In this document: one piece after another, positions 3,986 through 49,504 of the stretch
Position numbering within the stretch: the first letter of the stretch is position 1
Layout: each line of letters begins with the position of its first letter
Origin: Candidatus Berkelbacteria bacterium Licking1014_7
GTDB taxonomy: Bacteria; Patescibacteriota; UBA1384; GWA2-35-9; CG2-30-39-44
Assembly: GCA_007376535.1 (NCBI GenBank)
Contig: VMGK01000008.1
Span: forward strand, 1-49,504
Length of the DNA stretch: 49,504 nucleotides
Reading direction: 5' to 3'
Program-made: the position numbers and the translations under genes
Notes under the pieces: generated by a model
The model's input: only the letters and a program-made list of their open reading frames with translations
The model's database searches: none
Told to the model about the DNA's origin: nothing

Positions 3986-4249
3986 AACTCCTCCTGATTT
4001 TATTCTATTAAAAAATCTAATCGTTACCATCGGACGATTGCGATTAGCAGGCGGGCGAGCATGCTGAAAATCAATTATACCTCAAAAAATTATTTACACG
4101 ACTTACGCACTTTTAACAATTCTAATATATTTTCGCCGTCTAATTGACTTCGACGCCATCCACCCCGTAAAGCTCACTTCGTTCGCCACGGGGCAGGCAC
4201 CCGAGCGCCGCGTCCCGTTAATGACGCTTCTGTAATAATAGAATGTAAT

Positions 4250-5437
4250 CTATTTTACAGAAAGGAATTTATCGGGAAGCTCGCCACGATTGGGAGCGCC
4301 GGCTTTCAAATATTTAGCCCCAACCGCGACTGCCAAATCCGCGATAAAATCGTCTTCGGTCTCGCCGGCCCGGTGAGAAATCTGCACTTCAAAATTTGCC
4401 TCCCTGGCTAACTTTATCACCGCAAAGGTCTCTGACAAAGTGCCAATTTGATTTGGCTTGACGCTAATAGAATTTCCGGCTTTCATCTCAATCCCCTTTT
4501 TGAGTCGGTTAATATTCGTTGAAAATAAATCATCACCCACGATGGCAATTTTACTGCCCAGATCAGCCGTTGCGTCTGCCCAACCCTGCCAATCATCTTG
4601 CTTAAAAGGATCTTCCAAAATCGTCAAAGGATATTCAACGCAAACGCGGCGATAATAGTCAATCGGCTGATACGGATAAGTGGCGATGGAGAGTTGGGGA
4701 ATATTATCAGCCGCCACATCAACTGCCAAGACCACCTCTTTTCCCGGCGCAAAACCGGCCTTTTTAATTGCTTCTACCAAAAACTCAAGCGCTTCCTCAT
4801 TCGAATTCAACTGAGGCGCAAAACCGCCTTCATCGCCAACATTAATCGCTTTTCCCATCAGTTTTAATTTCTTTTCCAATGTTTTAAAAATTTTAACGCC
4901 GATGGCCATTTTCTGAGAAAAACTTAAATCGCTATCTATCGGCACGACCATAAAATCCTGCATCGTCAAATTATTATCAGCATGAACTCCGCCGTTAATT
5001 AAATTAAACATCGGGCTGGGCAAATTCATTCTAACTTGTTTATCACCGCCATAAAGTTTTGCCAGATACTGGTAAAATGGCATTTTTTGCGCCAGGGAAG
5101 CCACGCGCGCCACCGCAATTGACACACTCAAAAGCGCGTTGGCTCCCAGTTGAGATTTATTTTCAGTACCGTCTAAATTGATCAATGTTTTATCAATTTC
5201 CGCTTGTAAAAAAATATCTTTGCCTTTCAAATTTTGCAAAATTATGCCATTCGCATTTTCTGCAACATGATCAATGTTTTTAATATCCACTGCTTCGTAT
5301 TTTGCCACAATCGCGCCGCTCGGCGCGGACGCGCGCGCTTTTTCACCCGAATCCAATTCAACTTCCACTTCTAAAGCCGGATCGCCTAATGAATTATAAA
5401 TTTTCTGACCGGTGATATTTTTTATTACTGGCATCAA
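4250..5437 (-). CDS. eno: Enolase (divergent; altered loop and short C-terminus)
   Basis: DEGGFAP, EDPF..DDW, VGDDLFSTN, KPNQIGTLSE, SHRAGETEDDFIADL. The SGASTG loop reads SGAIVA and IQEFM reads MQDFM. Confidence 0.88.
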   Translation of the reverse strand: MMPVIKNITGQKIYNSLGDPALEVEVELDSGEKARASAPSGAIVAKYEAVDIKNIDHVAENANGIILQNLKGKDIFLQAEIDKTLINLDGTENKSQLGANALLSVSIAVARVASLAQKMPFYQYLAKLYGGDKQVRMNLPSPMFNLINGGVHADNNLTMQDFMVVPIDSDLSFSQKMAIGVKIFKTLEKKLKLMGKAINVGDEGGFAPQLNSNEEALEFLVEAIKKAGFAPGKEVVLAVDVAADNIPQLSIATYPYQPIDYYRRVCVEYPLTILEDPFKQDDWQGWADATADLGSKIAIVGDDLFSTNINRLKKGIEMKAGNSISVKPNQIGTLSETFAVIKLAREANFEVQISHRAGETEDDFIADLAVAVGAKYLKAGAPNRGELPDKFLSVK

Positions 5438-21992: not shown

Positions 21993-22161
21993 AACGATAT
22001 TTTTATAATAACAACGACTAAAAAATTTGTCAAGCCCCGAAAGGTCGCCAGACCGTTTCGAGGCGCCCGCCGTCGTTCAATCTCTTGCAATATCCTGATT
22101 GCAGGAATTTACAAGTAGATTTCATTTGAATGATTTCGTAACTCAAGGTAAATAACTATTA

Positions 22162-22950: not shown

Positions 22951-23464
22951 ATATTTTTTACCTACCACAACAATCAAAACACAATTTGCCTTTCATCGCG
23001 AGCAGATATTTAATTGAATGAATTAAATCAAAGAGCAACGAAGATAAATGTCAAAATCCAAATTGTTCCAAATGCCAAATGAATGCCAAAATCCTAATGA
23101 CAAATAATTTGACATTTAGTCATTTTAATTTAGGATTTGATTTGACATTTGAAATTTGAGCTTTGGAATTAAAAACCCTGCCCGGTAAAATTTCTTAATT
23201 GCCTGCCCCGTAATCCGCCTCAGGCGGATGTTCGGGGTAATTTAATTTCTTCATTCTACCCAACCCGCATTCAATCTCTTGCAGAAACCTAATTATATGT
23301 TACTGCAAATAGATTTTCCGCCAGAGGCGGATCTGCCTTTGGCATGACACTTTGGCGGGCAGGCATTTTGATTTATCATTCTTGATATGTGATTTAGTTA
23401 GAATAAATATCTGTGAGCAGATGATATTTTTAATCTGTATCTTGGAATTTACATTAAAAAATCA

Positions 23465-27830: not shown

Positions 27831-28116
27831 AATAAATCTATCTCAAAATTCAAGTCGCAAAACATAATTATATCAAATATCAAAAATGATAAATCAAAAT
27901 GACATATCAAACATTAAAAATATTTTTGCTTTTTAATATTTGTTTTTGCTTTTTGACTTTTGCTTTTTGATTTAAGTTTTTACATTTGAGTTGCCTGTCC
28001 CGTAATCCCGTCACTACGGGATGTTCGGGGTGATTTTGAGATTTGCCTGCCCCGTATTGCTCCGCCATCTGGCGGAAGTTTTCGGGGAGATTTGAATTTT
28101 GAGATTTACATTTTGC

Positions 28117-30891: not shown

Positions 30892-32328
30892 TTAAATTCT
30901 CGGGAAAAGCGCCACTGGTTTTAAGGTTTTCAACTGCCTTAAAATCTCTTGATTAGTTTGCGGCAAAAATGGTTCTAATTCTATGGCAATTTCGTAAATA
31001 CCATTATTCAATTTTTGCAGTTCAATATTTTTGCCCTTTTCCCAAAGCCGATTTTGCGAAATAAAATTATTCCAATATCTTACAGAATCCCAAATTTCAC
31101 TTAATTTTTTATTTTTAATTTGAATTTTTGATTTTTGTCCCGAACTTGTTTCGGGGATTTTTAATTTCGCGAAAAGCGGTATACTTCTCTGAATTAAATT
31201 GCCCAATTCATTTGCCAATAATCCATTATAAATCTCCTCAAACCGTTTTTGCGACCAGTCGCCATCGCCAAATTCTGACAATTCTTTCAACAAATAAAAA
31301 CGCACGCTATCTGTACCGTATTTTTCAATATATTCTAACGGATCTATCACATTGCCTAACGTCTTGGACATTTTTTGACCGATTGACTGAATAAACCCGT
31401 GCACGCGAATCTCGTCAGGCAGTCGCAAGCCGGCTGACATTAACATTCCCAGCCAAATTAAGCCGTGAAAACGCAAAATATCCTTTCCGATAAAATGAAT
31501 AATTCTATCAAAACTCTGCCATTTTTTTGTTATCTGGCTAAAATTTTCTTGCTTCAAACCTAACCCTGAAATATAATTAATCAGCGCGTCGCACCAGACA
31601 TAGATCGTCTGATAATTGCGAATTGATAATTGCGAATTGATAATTTTTTCTTTTTCTTTTTTCCTTTTTCTATCGGTGCCATCAGGCACCGACACGCCCC
31701 ATGGTAGTTTATCGCTCGAACGGGAGAAAGAAATGTCCTCCGCATCTTTAACAAGATTTAAGAGTTCGTTTTTCCGACTTTGGGGATATATTCTAATTTC
31801 GTCTTTTTCTATCGCCTTAAATATCCGATCTTTATATTTTTCTAATCGAAAAAAATAATTTACCTCTTTAATCTTTTCTGGCGCTTTTTTATGATACGGA
31901 CATTTTCCGTTTTGCAAATCGCGTTTTAAGACAAAGGCTTCGCAATCCACACAATATAGTCCTTCGTATGCTTTTAAGTATATATCTTTTGATTTTTCCA
32001 GCAATTTCCAAAACTCTTGGGCAATTTTTTTATGATAAGCGCTTGAAGTACGGATAAAATTATCTTGCGAGATATTTAATTTTTTAGTCAAGGCAAAAAA
32101 CAAGGCGCTGTTTTGATCAACAAAATCTTGCGTCTTGATATTTTCTTTTTGCGCCGCGTCCTGAATTTTCTGACCATTTTCATCAGTGCCAGTCAAGAAA
32201 AACACTTGGTTTGTCTGGCGCAGTTGGCGCGCCAAAACATCAGCCAGCACCAACTCCCATGCGTGCCCAATATGGGGCTTAGCATTAGCATAAGCAATTG
32301 AGGTAGTAATCAAAATATTTTTCTTCAT
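30892..32328 (-). CDS. metG: Methionyl-tRNA synthetase with in-frame repeat insertions
   Basis: TTSIAYANAKPHIGHAWE, FLTGTDENGQKIQ, KMSKTLGN. In-frame palindrome encodes PETSSGQKSK. Confidence 0.95.
   Translation of the reverse strand: MKKNILITTSIAYANAKPHIGHAWELVLADVLARQLRQTNQVFFLTGTDENGQKIQDAAQKENIKTQDFVDQNSALFFALTKKLNISQDNFIRTSSAYHKKIAQEFWKLLEKSKDIYLKAYEGLYCVDCEAFVLKRDLQNGKCPYHKKAPEKIKEVNYFFRLEKYKDRIFKAIEKDEIRIYPQSRKNELLNLVKDAEDISFSRSSDKLPWGVSVPDGTDRKRKKEKEKIINSQLSIRNYQTIYVWCDALINYISGLGLKQENFSQITKKWQSFDRIIHFIGKDILRFHGLIWLGMLMSAGLRLPDEIRVHGFIQSIGQKMSKTLGNVIDPLEYIEKYGTDSVRFYLLKELSEFGDGDWSQKRFEEIYNGLLANELGNLIQRSIPLFAKLKIPETSSGQKSKIQIKNKKLSEIWDSVRYWNNFISQNRLWEKGKNIELQKLNNGIYEIAIELEPFLPQTNQEILRQLKTLKPVALFPRI
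31137..31157. repeat. Palindromic insertion inside metG
   Basis: GTCCCGAACTTGTTTCGGGGA; longer match to the endoQ copy TTTTTGATTTTTGTCCCGAA(C/T)TTGTTTCGGG. Confidence 0.85.
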
Positions 32329-32330
32329 AG

Positions 32331-32491
32331 AGACCTCTTGCGTAATAATTTTCGCAACGAAATTTTCAGATTTTGAGCGAGGCAAAGCAAAAATTTTGAG
32401 ACATATACAGAGTATCTGTTGAAAAATTTTTGCAAAGCCGCAGCCAAAAATATGGAAATTGCAGTAGAAAGATTATTGCGCGAGAGGTCTA
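32331..32491. repeat. R4 MITE-like element with terminal inverted repeats
   Basis: AGACCTCTTGCGTAATAAT ... TTATTGCGCGAGAGGTCTA; left half recurs at 21046-21078. Confidence 0.7.
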
Positions 32492-32523
32492 TAGAACAAT
32501 CATAGCAAAAAACCAACCTAAAA

Positions 32524-33858
32524 TCAAAACAAACTTTTTTGGGCGGATTTTTCCCGATCCCCGTCTTTGAAAACTTTCACTTTTCCAAACTCGCCGTCAT
32601 AGCCCGGATCAATAAAAATATCGCCTTTCCGAACCCGCATAATCCCTTCAATAATCCGCTCGTTTGTCTGATTTTTCAAATCGCTCGGGCTTACATCTTC
32701 TAAAATTGCCAACTCTGAACCGAATTCCCGAATCAATCTCGTATATTCGTTTTTGACTGTCAAAGTATTTTCGCCCACCCGAAAACTTTCAGCGATAATT
32801 TGCGACAATTGAACCAAGGACTTATAAGACGCTGGATTTTCGGGTTTTCCCCCCACCGGACGATCCGCCAGTTCATCAACCCGATAAATCACCCCCAGAG
32901 TCATTGGTCTGCCACACTTTGGACACAAATTTTCATCTGCAACTTTTGATTTTTGTCCCGAATTTGTTTCGGGATTGATTTTTGATTTATTTTTATGGTC
33001 GGTCTTGTATCCGCAGGCGCGGTGCCCGGACCAATGGTATTTTCCTTCCTCCGGATAAAATTCTATCGTATAGGCAAAATGCGAGTTATTCTCATTAAAA
33101 CCGTGTTCACGAAAATTAGCGCTCCCCTCTTTTAACATTTTTCTTAACAAATCATAAGTAAGCGCTTCGCCTTTTTTCAGATAAAATATATTCGCTTCGC
33201 GCGCAATATTGCCCAACGAATGCCCATCGCCGTTTGACACTAACGCAAAATTATCCAAGTCGGACACGCGCCAATTCATCGCTGGATCTGACGAAAGTCC
33301 GGTTTCCACCGCCAAAATTCTTGATGTTAAGTCGCGAAAACATTCTTTAATACTGTCATAACCGGATTTTGACCCAAGCACAGAAAACCAAGGCGTCCAA
33401 ATATGCGCCGGTATTATAATCGCGCGTTGGTCGCATTCCAGCGCGATTTTTGCCAAATTGTAGGCGGAAATTCCCAAAATCGGTCGCCCGTCAGAATATA
33501 AATTCCCGATATTGGTTAATCGCTCGTTAAATTTTTCCACTGCCGCAAAATTAGGCATTAAAAACACCAAATGGATTCTGCGCACTTTGCCAAATTCAGC
33601 ATAAATGCAAGAAATCTCAGTAGATAAAACAAATTTTATCTCGTCGCTCTCACCCTTTAATTGGTAAAGTCCGCTACCCGCCTCGGCTAAATTTTTTTTG
33701 AGTGCTGAAAACCAAAACGGATGGGTAAAATCCGCTGTGCCCAATAAATTTACACCTTTGTATTTGGCCCACAACCGCAAATTTTCCAATGTCATTTCGG
33801 CTGAAGTGGCGCGGGAAAATTTAGAGTGAAAATGTAAATCAGCCACTATTTTTTGCAT
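32524..33858 (-). CDS. EndoQ-like PHP-domain endonuclease
   Basis: ADLHFHSKFSRATS, STEISCIY, VSNGDGHSLGN and CxxC zinc region, as in PHP/EndoQ proteins often labelled UvrD-like. Confidence 0.8.
   Translation of the reverse strand: MQKIVADLHFHSKFSRATSAEMTLENLRLWAKYKGVNLLGTADFTHPFWFSALKKNLAEAGSGLYQLKGESDEIKFVLSTEISCIYAEFGKVRRIHLVFLMPNFAAVEKFNERLTNIGNLYSDGRPILGISAYNLAKIALECDQRAIIIPAHIWTPWFSVLGSKSGYDSIKECFRDLTSRILAVETGLSSDPAMNWRVSDLDNFALVSNGDGHSLGNIAREANIFYLKKGEALTYDLLRKMLKEGSANFREHGFNENNSHFAYTIEFYPEEGKYHWSGHRACGYKTDHKNKSKINPETNSGQKSKVADENLCPKCGRPMTLGVIYRVDELADRPVGGKPENPASYKSLVQLSQIIAESFRVGENTLTVKNEYTRLIREFGSELAILEDVSPSDLKNQTNERIIEGIMRVRKGDIFIDPGYDGEFGKVKVFKDGDREKSAQKSLF
32955..32975. repeat. 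Palindromic insertion inside the EndoQ-like gene
   Basis: GTCCCGAATTTGTTTCGGGAT encoding PETNSGQKSK, same frame as the metG copy. Confidence 0.85.
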
Positions 33859-40274: not shown

Positions 40275-40365
40275 AACATTAAATCAAATAGCAAAGAGTA
40301 AAAAGCAAAAACAAATATTAAAATGTAAAAATATTTTTAATTTTTGATATGTCCCGTCGTCGTTC

Positions 40366-40474
40366 AATCTCTTGCAGAAACCTAATTATATGTTACTGCA
40401 AACCCGCCATCGCTATCGCTCAGGCGATTAGCAGGCGGGGGAATAATCACCTATTTTTGCAAGAGATTGAATGC
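40366..40474. repeat. R1 element with inverted ends TTCAATCTCTTGCA/TGCAAGAGATTGAA
   Basis: Also at 22070, 23270, 43838 and (inverted) 47826-47905; shared core CTTGCAGAAACCTAATTATATGTTACTGCA. Confidence 0.8.
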
Positions 40475-43686: not shown

Positions 43687-43850
43687 AATGTTTGTTTGAA
43701 GTATAACTAAAAAACGACTGATTGTCAAAAAAAAGGATCCGGGCAAAATGAATTATGAATTATGAATAAATCAAAAAGCAAAAGTCAAAAAGCAAAAACA
43801 AATATTAAAAAGCAAAAATATTTTTAATGTTTGATATGTCCCGCCGTCGT

Positions 43851-44834
43851 TCAATCTCTTTGAGACGCGCCGCCTGCCAAAGAAACATAGGAAAATTTAT
43901 CGGCTAATTTGAATTTGTCAATCACCGCCACTGTATCTCCGCCTGCCGCCACAGAAAACGCTTTGGTCTCAGTGATACATCTTGCGATCGCTTCAGAACC
44001 AATTTCAAATCCTTGCTCTTCGGTTTTGCCTAAATTGCCATTCCAAAAAATTGTCCTGGCTTTTTTTATCTCTGCCTGGAAAATTTTAATCGTTTTTTTA
44101 TCAATATCCCACACTTCGCCTTGATTATTTTTAACTCCCCCCAAAGCCAAAACAACTTTATTATCGCCTAAAATTTCCGCGTCTTTCTGCGCTTCAAGCG
44201 CGGTCTTGCCGCCCACCAAGACATTATCCGCAATTTTTGCCAGCGCTAAAATCGCCGGTTTTTTGTCTTCAATTTTTGCTCCGCCAATAATTACCACAAA
44301 CGGTCTATTTTTTTGTCTAAGCAATTTTGATAAATTTTCAAATTCTTTTTGAAACTGCAAACCGGCGCAAGATGGTAAAATTTTTGCGATCGCAACTGTG
44401 CTCATATGCGCCCGATGCGAAACCGAAAATGCATCATTGACAAACGCCTTGCAAAATCCAGCATAACGGTTAGCCAGCACAGACGAATTTTTTTCCTCGC
44501 GCGGATCAAAGCGTATATTATCCAGCACGGTAAATTTTTCTCTAGAATACTGAGGATAAATTTTGGCAAAATGATTTTTCAAAGAAAAAGTGCGCAATTT
44601 TTCATCGCGCCCTTGGGGACGACCCAAATGCGTCATTATGTAAATGCGGCGCGCTTGGCGCTCCAAAAGATTGTCAAAAGTCGCAAAATTAGCCCGCATA
44701 CGGGAATCGTCTAAAATTTTATAGCCATTGATGTCGCCTTGAGGCGGATCAATCGGCACATTCCAATCCACCCGCGCCAAAACCCGATTCTTAAAAATAT
44801 CTTGCTGAATATCGTCTAAGATTTTCAGATTCAT
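43851..44834 (-). CDS. pgk: Phosphoglycerate kinase, C-terminally truncated
   Basis: ARVDWNVPI, HLGRPQG, NDAFSVSHRAHMST, IIGGAKIEDK, GGDTVA, LAGGAS, then QRD* from a repeat. Confidence 0.9.
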   Translation of the reverse strand: MNLKILDDIQQDIFKNRVLARVDWNVPIDPPQGDINGYKILDDSRMRANFATFDNLLERQARRIYIMTHLGRPQGRDEKLRTFSLKNHFAKIYPQYSREKFTVLDNIRFDPREEKNSSVLANRYAGFCKAFVNDAFSVSHRAHMSTVAIAKILPSCAGLQFQKEFENLSKLLRQKNRPFVVIIGGAKIEDKKPAILALAKIADNVLVGGKTALEAQKDAEILGDNKVVLALGGVKNNQGEVWDIDKKTIKIFQAEIKKARTIFWNGNLGKTEEQGFEIGSEAIARCITETKAFSVAAGGDTVAVIDKFKLADKFSYVSLAGGASQRD

Positions 44835-47768: not shown

Positions 47769-47825
47769 AGTCCGCCAAAGTGAAATCTAATTTGAGAAGA
47801 CCGGCCCGGCGGCAATGAAATCTAT

Positions 47826-47905
47826 GTGCAGTAACATATAATTAGGTTTCTGCAAGAGATTGAACGACGACGGGTACTTCTCAAAGAGATTGAACGACGG
47901 CGGAC
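47826..47905. repeat. Two adjacent inverted R1 units downstream of proS
   Basis: TGCAGTAACATATAATTAGGTTTCTGCAAGAGATTGAACGACGACGGG and TCTCAAAGAGATTGAACGACGGCGGA. Confidence 0.8.
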
Positions 47906-49140: not shown

Positions 49141-49365
49141 ATTTTTATCATAACACGACTTAGGCACTTTTAACAATTTTTAATATATGGGACTATCGTC
49201 GAATACCATATTTGCGCTATTTTACCAAATTTTAGTAATTTTACAAAAACAATTTTTTCGCCAATATATCCTATATTTCCTTAAAAATTCTTTTTGAAAA
49301 TTCCTTAAAATTTGAAAAAATATCATCAAAAGCGCATTCGACGACAGTCCCTTATTTTCGCAGGA

Positions 49366-49504
49366 TAATTGACTTCGACGCCATCCGCCCCGTAAAGCTC
49401 ACTTTGTTCGCAACGGGGCAGGCACCCGAGCGCCGCGTCCCGTTAATGACGCTTCTGTAATAATAGAATGTAATCTATTTTACAGAAAGGAATTTATCGG
49501 GAAG
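49366..49504 (-). repeat. Near-copy of the eno 3' end plus downstream intergenic (matches 4141-4279)
   Basis: 139 nt aligned with 3 mismatches; last 92 nt identical, including eno codons LPDKFLSVK-TAG. Confidence 0.93.

Follow-up and report, generated by a model that had tools for sequence, protein, structure and literature searches.

A short palindromic repeat read in frame in metG and an EndoQ-like gene of a Berkelbacteria genome, and its occurrence in other genomes

Two adjoining genes on the minus strand of a contig from Candidatus Berkelbacteria bacterium Licking1014_7 carry the same short palindrome inside their reading frames, and the question is how it came to lie in both. The window, that is the whole stretch of DNA analysed, has 49,504 nucleotides. 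The first gene is metG (30892..32328 from its ATG), which codes for methionyl-tRNA synthetase (Pfam tRNA-synt_1g, E 4e-89; A. aeolicus MetRS 2csx, E 1.9e-86), and the second one (32524..33858) codes for an EndoQ-like nuclease of the PHP type (Pfu EndoQ 5zb8, E 4e-43). We consider it probable that both have received a non-autonomous palindromic element of around 40 bp, residing in a Patescibacteria (CPR) genome and tolerated where the reading frame is kept.

The two genes have the block TTTTGATTTTTGTCCCGAA[C/T]TTGTTTCGGG in common, with 29 of 30 nucleotides identical (31126-31155 in metG and 32944-32973 in the EndoQ-like gene). An earlier note, made from the letters of the window, had described such a shared sequence; it is indeed present in both genes, although the identical flank actually starts TTTTGATTTTTG, where four Ts are common and a C of EndoQ stands opposite the fifth T of metG. 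The palindromes themselves were found by exact match at the places claimed, 31137-31155 and 32955-32973 on the plus strand, and the two copies are read in an identical frame, as the note had stated: the MetG peptide is PETSSGQKSK (from P392) and the EndoQ peptide is PETNSGQKSK (from P296). The metG palindrome of 17 nt (CCCGAACTTGTTTCGGG, 31139..31155, plus strand) has 6-bp arms and a 5-nt loop and is predicted to form a DNA hairpin of -5.7 kcal/mol (z -2.8), and for the 17-nt palindrome of the EndoQ-like gene (CCCGAATTTGTTTCGGG, 32957..32973, plus strand) the predicted value is -6.8 kcal/mol (z -4.0). The latter, together with a flanking T and A, makes a 19-nt palindrome that has TTGATTTTTG directly on both sides. 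These 10-bp direct repeats could be a target duplication, the element ends or AT-rich filler; they are suggestive of the first, yet uninterpretable without an empty site because this genome is rich in filler of period 7. Downstream of the palindrome the homology between the two genes extends as (ATT)GATTTTT, with a codon-sized gap of 3 bp in metG in the alignment.

Regarding the rest of the 806-kb genome, a model (R1) made from the sequences of four copies matched exactly four places, all of them with E<1e-8, the next best match having a value of 0.16. The genome search that the earlier note had proposed therefore gives four copies, of which three are genic, one of these counting as coding depending on the start codon chosen. 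The copy in metG covers 31123..31167 on the minus strand (E 9.2e-9 when the whole genome is searched and 1.8e-13 for the window; limits from the four-copy alignment), its sense strand being AAAAATC---CCCGAAACAAGTTCGGGACAAAAATCAAAA, which encodes IPETSSGQKSKI. The copy in the EndoQ-like gene covers 32941..32989 on the same strand (E 1.1e-13), with the sense strand CAAAAATCAATCCCGAAACAAATTCGGGACAAAAATCAA encoding KINPETNSGQKSK. The third one (C26:7797-7846), whose coding status depends on the start codon, lies in the N-terminal tail M-M-K-K-Q-K-S-N-L-K-Q-I-R-D-K-K of rpsK, the gene of ribosomal protein S11 (Pfam S11, E 8e-38), and the fourth one (C21:30932-30980) is intergenic, near hisS. All four have common flanks beyond the palindrome. 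The unit comes to around 40 bp, made of a hairpin of 17-19 nt (GTCCCGAACTTGTTTCGGGA) between flanks that are A-rich on the sense strand.

Half of these genomic copies lie 1.8 kb apart on one strand, as would be expected if the block had been copied locally between metG and EndoQ by gene conversion or template switching, with no dispersal mechanism as such. We regard this as unlikely, since the other two copies are on other contigs, the loop base pairs the metG copy with that of C21 and the EndoQ copy with that of rpsK in the alignment, and the palindrome is also found in unrelated genes of other genomes. In G027, a genome of the same class, the palindrome CCCGAACT[C/T]GTTTCGGG lies in frame in IleRS (L051), twice in AlaRS (L313, L235) and in the gene of tRNA-guanine transglycosylase, TGT (L042). 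By plain count, translation genes have been entered in frame more than once in at least two genomes of the class.

Beyond the class, the palindrome is much more widely distributed. Of 380 genomes of the phylum, 21 contain the 17-mer with either loop and not one contains the reversed control; the 17-mer is concentrated in the class of our genome (10 of the 36 class genomes in this sample, our own included). In a scan of GTDB genomes the core CCCGAACTTGTTTCGGG was found in at least 10 phyla among the matches listed, which include Bacteroidota, Balneolota, Ignavibacteria, Spirochaetota, Melainabacteria, Alphaproteobacteria, Armatimonadota, Campylobacterota (Thiovulum), Deferribacterota, Lentisphaerota and several Patescibacteria lineages. 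Although some tens of matches are expected for a random 17-mer in the amount of DNA scanned, the setting of the core is fixed and this argues against chance: among the matches listed, GTCAT precedes it at 82 of 146 sites (gtcac at 7) and ATC follows it at 76. The core also occurs in another setting, (C/T)(C/T)TGT-core-A, chiefly among Bacteroidota and in a single Kerfeldbacteria genome; this other setting is the one most similar to the window copies. The 17-mer was also found in 25 stretches of viral contigs, several of them in the GTCAT setting; no clear viral vehicle for the palindrome was recognised among these stretches.

The constancy of arms and loop across phyla, together with the strong hairpin potential, might instead reflect an RNA hairpin within genes, or a site where protein binds (an attenuator, an mRNA stabiliser or a chromosome-organising site) that is translated incidentally and kept for regulation. 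In keeping with this, copies outside our genome are mostly located between genes, roughly 27 of 174 being in possible long open frames. However, the only four copies of our own genome show no common position with respect to gene starts or ends, and the mid-gene sites in EndoQ and MetG are not where an attenuator would be expected, and therefore we find this explanation very unlikely.

About 14 residues of the window EndoQ are without counterpart in all 11 class homologues that cover the region, and they are also absent from Pfu EndoQ (5zb8). By comparison with this solved protein, the extra segment immediately precedes CPKC, the second half of a Cys/zinc-type motif. Judged by these alignments, the EndoQ copy is a clean insertion in the loop of the Cys motif, which is how the comparison with homologues suggested by the earlier note turns out for this gene. 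We placed the segments of EndoQ and MetG by aligning both proteins to the solved EndoQ and MetRS, single-sequence AlphaFold models having a mean pLDDT of only 31 and 35. Furthermore, the EndoQ of another genome, G023, has a different in-frame insertion in the same loop, VIPSGSEESV, encoded by GTCATTCCGAGTGGTAGTGAGGAATCTGTC (L193, about 2340-2372), which is itself a palindromic repeat of the GTCAT type. The same EndoQ loop carries different palindromes in the two genomes and, therefore, it was invaded at least twice.

The earlier note pointed to the common frame of metG and EndoQ; such a common frame is not a rule, because the rpsK copy is translated in a different frame, as NLKQIRDKK, and consequently it is the DNA that is conserved and not the peptide. 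In the genic copies the A-rich strand is always the sense strand. All three frames of this strand are free of stops and the opposite strand is open in only one frame, which explains that the genic copies are translatable and all have one orientation. It is hardly credible that PETxSGQKSK is a functional peptide or binding motif kept by selection: one frame and a near-identical peptide in two proteins would suit it, but there is the other frame of rpsK, an intergenic copy exists, the segment is missing from every EndoQ homologue examined, and other genomes read the palindrome as PELVSG, SRNEFG, IPKQVR or IPNLFR. Finally, a chance palindrome in AT-rich DNA of low complexity can be taken as refuted, since, abundant as TTTTTGATTTTTG filler and similar repeats are in the window, dinucleotide shuffling gives only 0.01 expected palindrome matches there, the reversed control stays at zero and the four genomic matches are highly significant.

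The case of MetG is different from that of EndoQ. Its copy sits in the linker that leads to the anticodon-binding domain; the length of this linker varies among homologues, and there the window protein is shorter than most homologues (in a comparison including solved MetRS). A clean insertion, the outcome for which the earlier note had proposed to align MetG as well, cannot be claimed here; according to the alignment, the copy may have replaced sequence instead of simply lengthening the protein. A second in-frame insertion in metG, unrelated to the element, lies at 31614..31692 on the minus strand. It adds about 20 residues that neither 29 MetG homologues nor the solved MetRS have, and it is clean. 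It consists of a perfect hairpin, TCGGTGCC-TGAT-GGCACCGA (CGGTGCC-TGAT-GGCACCG), behind which come an A-rich tract and two copies of AATTATCAATTCGC in tandem (the unit is also given as AATTGCGAATTGATAATT / AATTGCGAATTGAT). As a repeat family this hairpin was rejected, one copy being found in our genome and one in one relative.

Taken as a palindromic element that moves between sites, the repeat would have the following history. Copies would have landed in genes, among other places, and those in genes would survive where the frame is kept and the site is tolerant, which means loops, linkers or tails. The element could spread as single-stranded hairpins, either through a Y1 (HUH) transposase acting in trans or through template switching in replication, and the peptides that it adds would be neutral. 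As to the reading of the earlier note, the four genomic copies, the EndoQ insertion and the in-frame copies of G027 speak for a dispersed palindrome in unrelated genes; its mobility is inferred. In kind, the repeat is what that note proposed, a gene-invading palindromic repeat that is real and well above chance.

Among the known repeats, the nearest group is the superfamily of CGTC-tagged REPs (Di Nocera et al. 2013, PMC3733652), which includes dRS3 of Neisseria and RPE-4 and RPE-6 of Rickettsia. They are defined by a CGTC or TGTC tag and a stem of 8-9 bp that begins with AT, with a loop of 4-5 nt, and they frequently form head-to-head dimers. The same work reports that REPs of the CGTC and GTAG kinds lie in frame within genes for DNA repair and for tRNA synthetases, that recB of two Xanthomonas species holds different REPs at nearly one site, and that no transposase gene is flanked by the CGTC repeats; it makes no mention of Patescibacteria or candidate phyla. 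Our repeat resembles the CGTC REPs in its GC-containing stem and 5-nt loop, in its in-frame presence in DNA-repair and tRNA-synthetase genes and in having no transposase gene alongside. In most genomes, the core has a (C/T)GTC tag, an 8-bp stem beginning with AT and a short tail, and the GTCAT-core-ATCT copies of other genomes agree with the definition in tag, start of the stem and 5-nt loop. However, the four copies of our own genome have no CAT between TGT and the core, which is bordered by A/T-rich flanks instead. They read TGT-CCCGAA..TTCGGG-ATT, with neither the CGTC tag nor the AT start of the stem, and they have 6-bp arms (plus a T-A pair in EndoQ) and a 5-nt loop, against the 8-bp stem and 5-nt loop of GTCAT copies elsewhere. 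Head-to-head dimers were not found in our genome, and elsewhere an inverted GCTGAA..TTCAGC unit follows the palindrome at several loci. The copy number of our genome, four, is also very low. Since the window copies have the core in common with the CGTC REPs and lack the tag and the AT, we regard them as a variant and not as a strict member.

The earlier note had drawn a parallel with the Rickettsia palindromic elements. The classic one, RPE-1, has around 100-150 bp and is inserted within the frames of housekeeping genes, unrelated to each other, in a bacterium with a reduced genome (Ogata et al. 2000, as cited in PMC10969869). The parallel holds in that a dispersed palindrome contributes stretches of peptide to proteins of different families, as in EndoQ, MetG, the N-terminal tail of rpsK and the IleRS, AlaRS and TGT of G027, but the nearest group is that of the CGTC REPs with RPE-4 and RPE-6, and not RPE-1. 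From the latter our repeat differs in its unit of only around 40 bp, its few copies and its two frames within one genome instead of a single one, and no sequence link between them is expected.

With the REPs and REPINs mobilised by RAYT transposases the repeat has in common that it is a short, dispersed and imperfect palindrome of 20-40 bp, in a genome where Y1_Tnp genes are present. The differences are that the Y1_Tnp genes of our genome are not flanked by the palindrome of the element, that there is no GTAG tag and that the copy number is low. We found no CCCGAA palindrome beside the Y1_Tnp genes at the loci inspected, in our genome and in 11 relatives that bear the palindrome, and a RAYT acting in cis was consequently rejected as the mobiliser. 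Y1_Tnp genes are commoner in palindrome-bearing genomes (12 of 14 against 35 of 85, p=0.003), and within the class they occur in 10 of 10 palindrome-bearing genomes against 19 of 45 (p=0.0009); class and genome history confound this association. The mechanism that we tentatively prefer, giving it somewhat less than an even chance, is a single-stranded hairpin mobilised in trans, and its main alternative would be template switching during replication. The Y1_Tnp genes of contig C33 and of contig C8 (two on the latter) are flanked by unrelated palindromes of 27-61 bp, with none similar at C22 and C18. At least three RAYT-like genes of our genome (L187, L188 and L189, on C33 and C8) thus have their own long palindrome on both sides, different for each gene, for example AACCCAAATTTGCAAGCCCGTCGGGCTTGCAAATTTGGGTT. 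At G000:C10 1893-1915 (L332), outer arms of the RAYT type (CCCAAATTTG..CAAATTTGGG) enclose TCCCGATAATATATCGGGA, an interior other than the one next to the RAYT gene, as though palindromes exchanged their interiors.

Gene-invading palindromes have been described before, in Rickettsia and in other bacteria, so what we describe is a variant in a host group that is new as far as we found. In our literature search the 17-mer was printed in no paper, nor was any of the peptides HPELVSG, PETSSGQ and IPKQVRDD, and no paper was found on palindromes within genes in Parcubacteria. Patescibacteria are the bacteria with the smallest genomes. The gene-invading palindromes (RPE, CGTC REP) are thereby extended to a group in which additional DNA should be strongly selected against. 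Of the new results, the strongest are the two different palindromes in the EndoQ loop, the two frames in one genome and the series of tRNA-synthetase genes that carry palindromes in frame; this loop and the repeatedly invaded synthetase genes are natural test cases for how proteins tolerate insertions driven by DNA. Moreover, a near-universal sequence with no dedicated transposase turns the mover of CGTC-type repeats into a question that can be searched. It is possible, though we hold it doubtful, that CCCGAACTTGTTTCGGG represents a single lineage of selfish hairpins, whose letters stay unchanged in many bacterial phyla through continued horizontal spread and through mobilisation in trans by general host or transposon machinery, and which regularly makes new loops in the MetRS, IleRS, AlaRS, TGT, S11 and EndoQ of Patescibacteria.

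Other repeats are read in frame in these genomes too. The LeuRS gene of our genome (G000:C29, L331, minus strand) has two tandem in-frame palindromic repeats, CCCGAACTCGCTTC..GGGACAGGCAAATCTC, read as ..GRETGQANLPELASRNGTGKSQNKK.., and a separate KSKIKNQKSK segment built of filler of the same type. In G027, AlaRS holds several kinds of in-frame repeat in one protein (PELVSGSPS, VIPTAVEES and VIPTEAEES), and IleRS has NDQMPMTNDQ tandem repeats. Regarding the window itself, a dispersed mosaic repeat lies at 27869-27987, 40280-40402 and 43767-43865, and also at 22066-22126, 23240-23316 and 47814-47904; it is composed of an AT-rich stretch of the (A)nGCAAAAATC type joined to TTCAATCTCTTGCAGAAACCTAATTATATGTTACTGCA and it includes long identical inverted copies. 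Furthermore, a repeat of 152 nt is present at 4128-4279 and at 49353-49504, with 96 percent identity. The second copy ends exactly at the contig end, and this end, lying within the repeat, is probably an assembly break.
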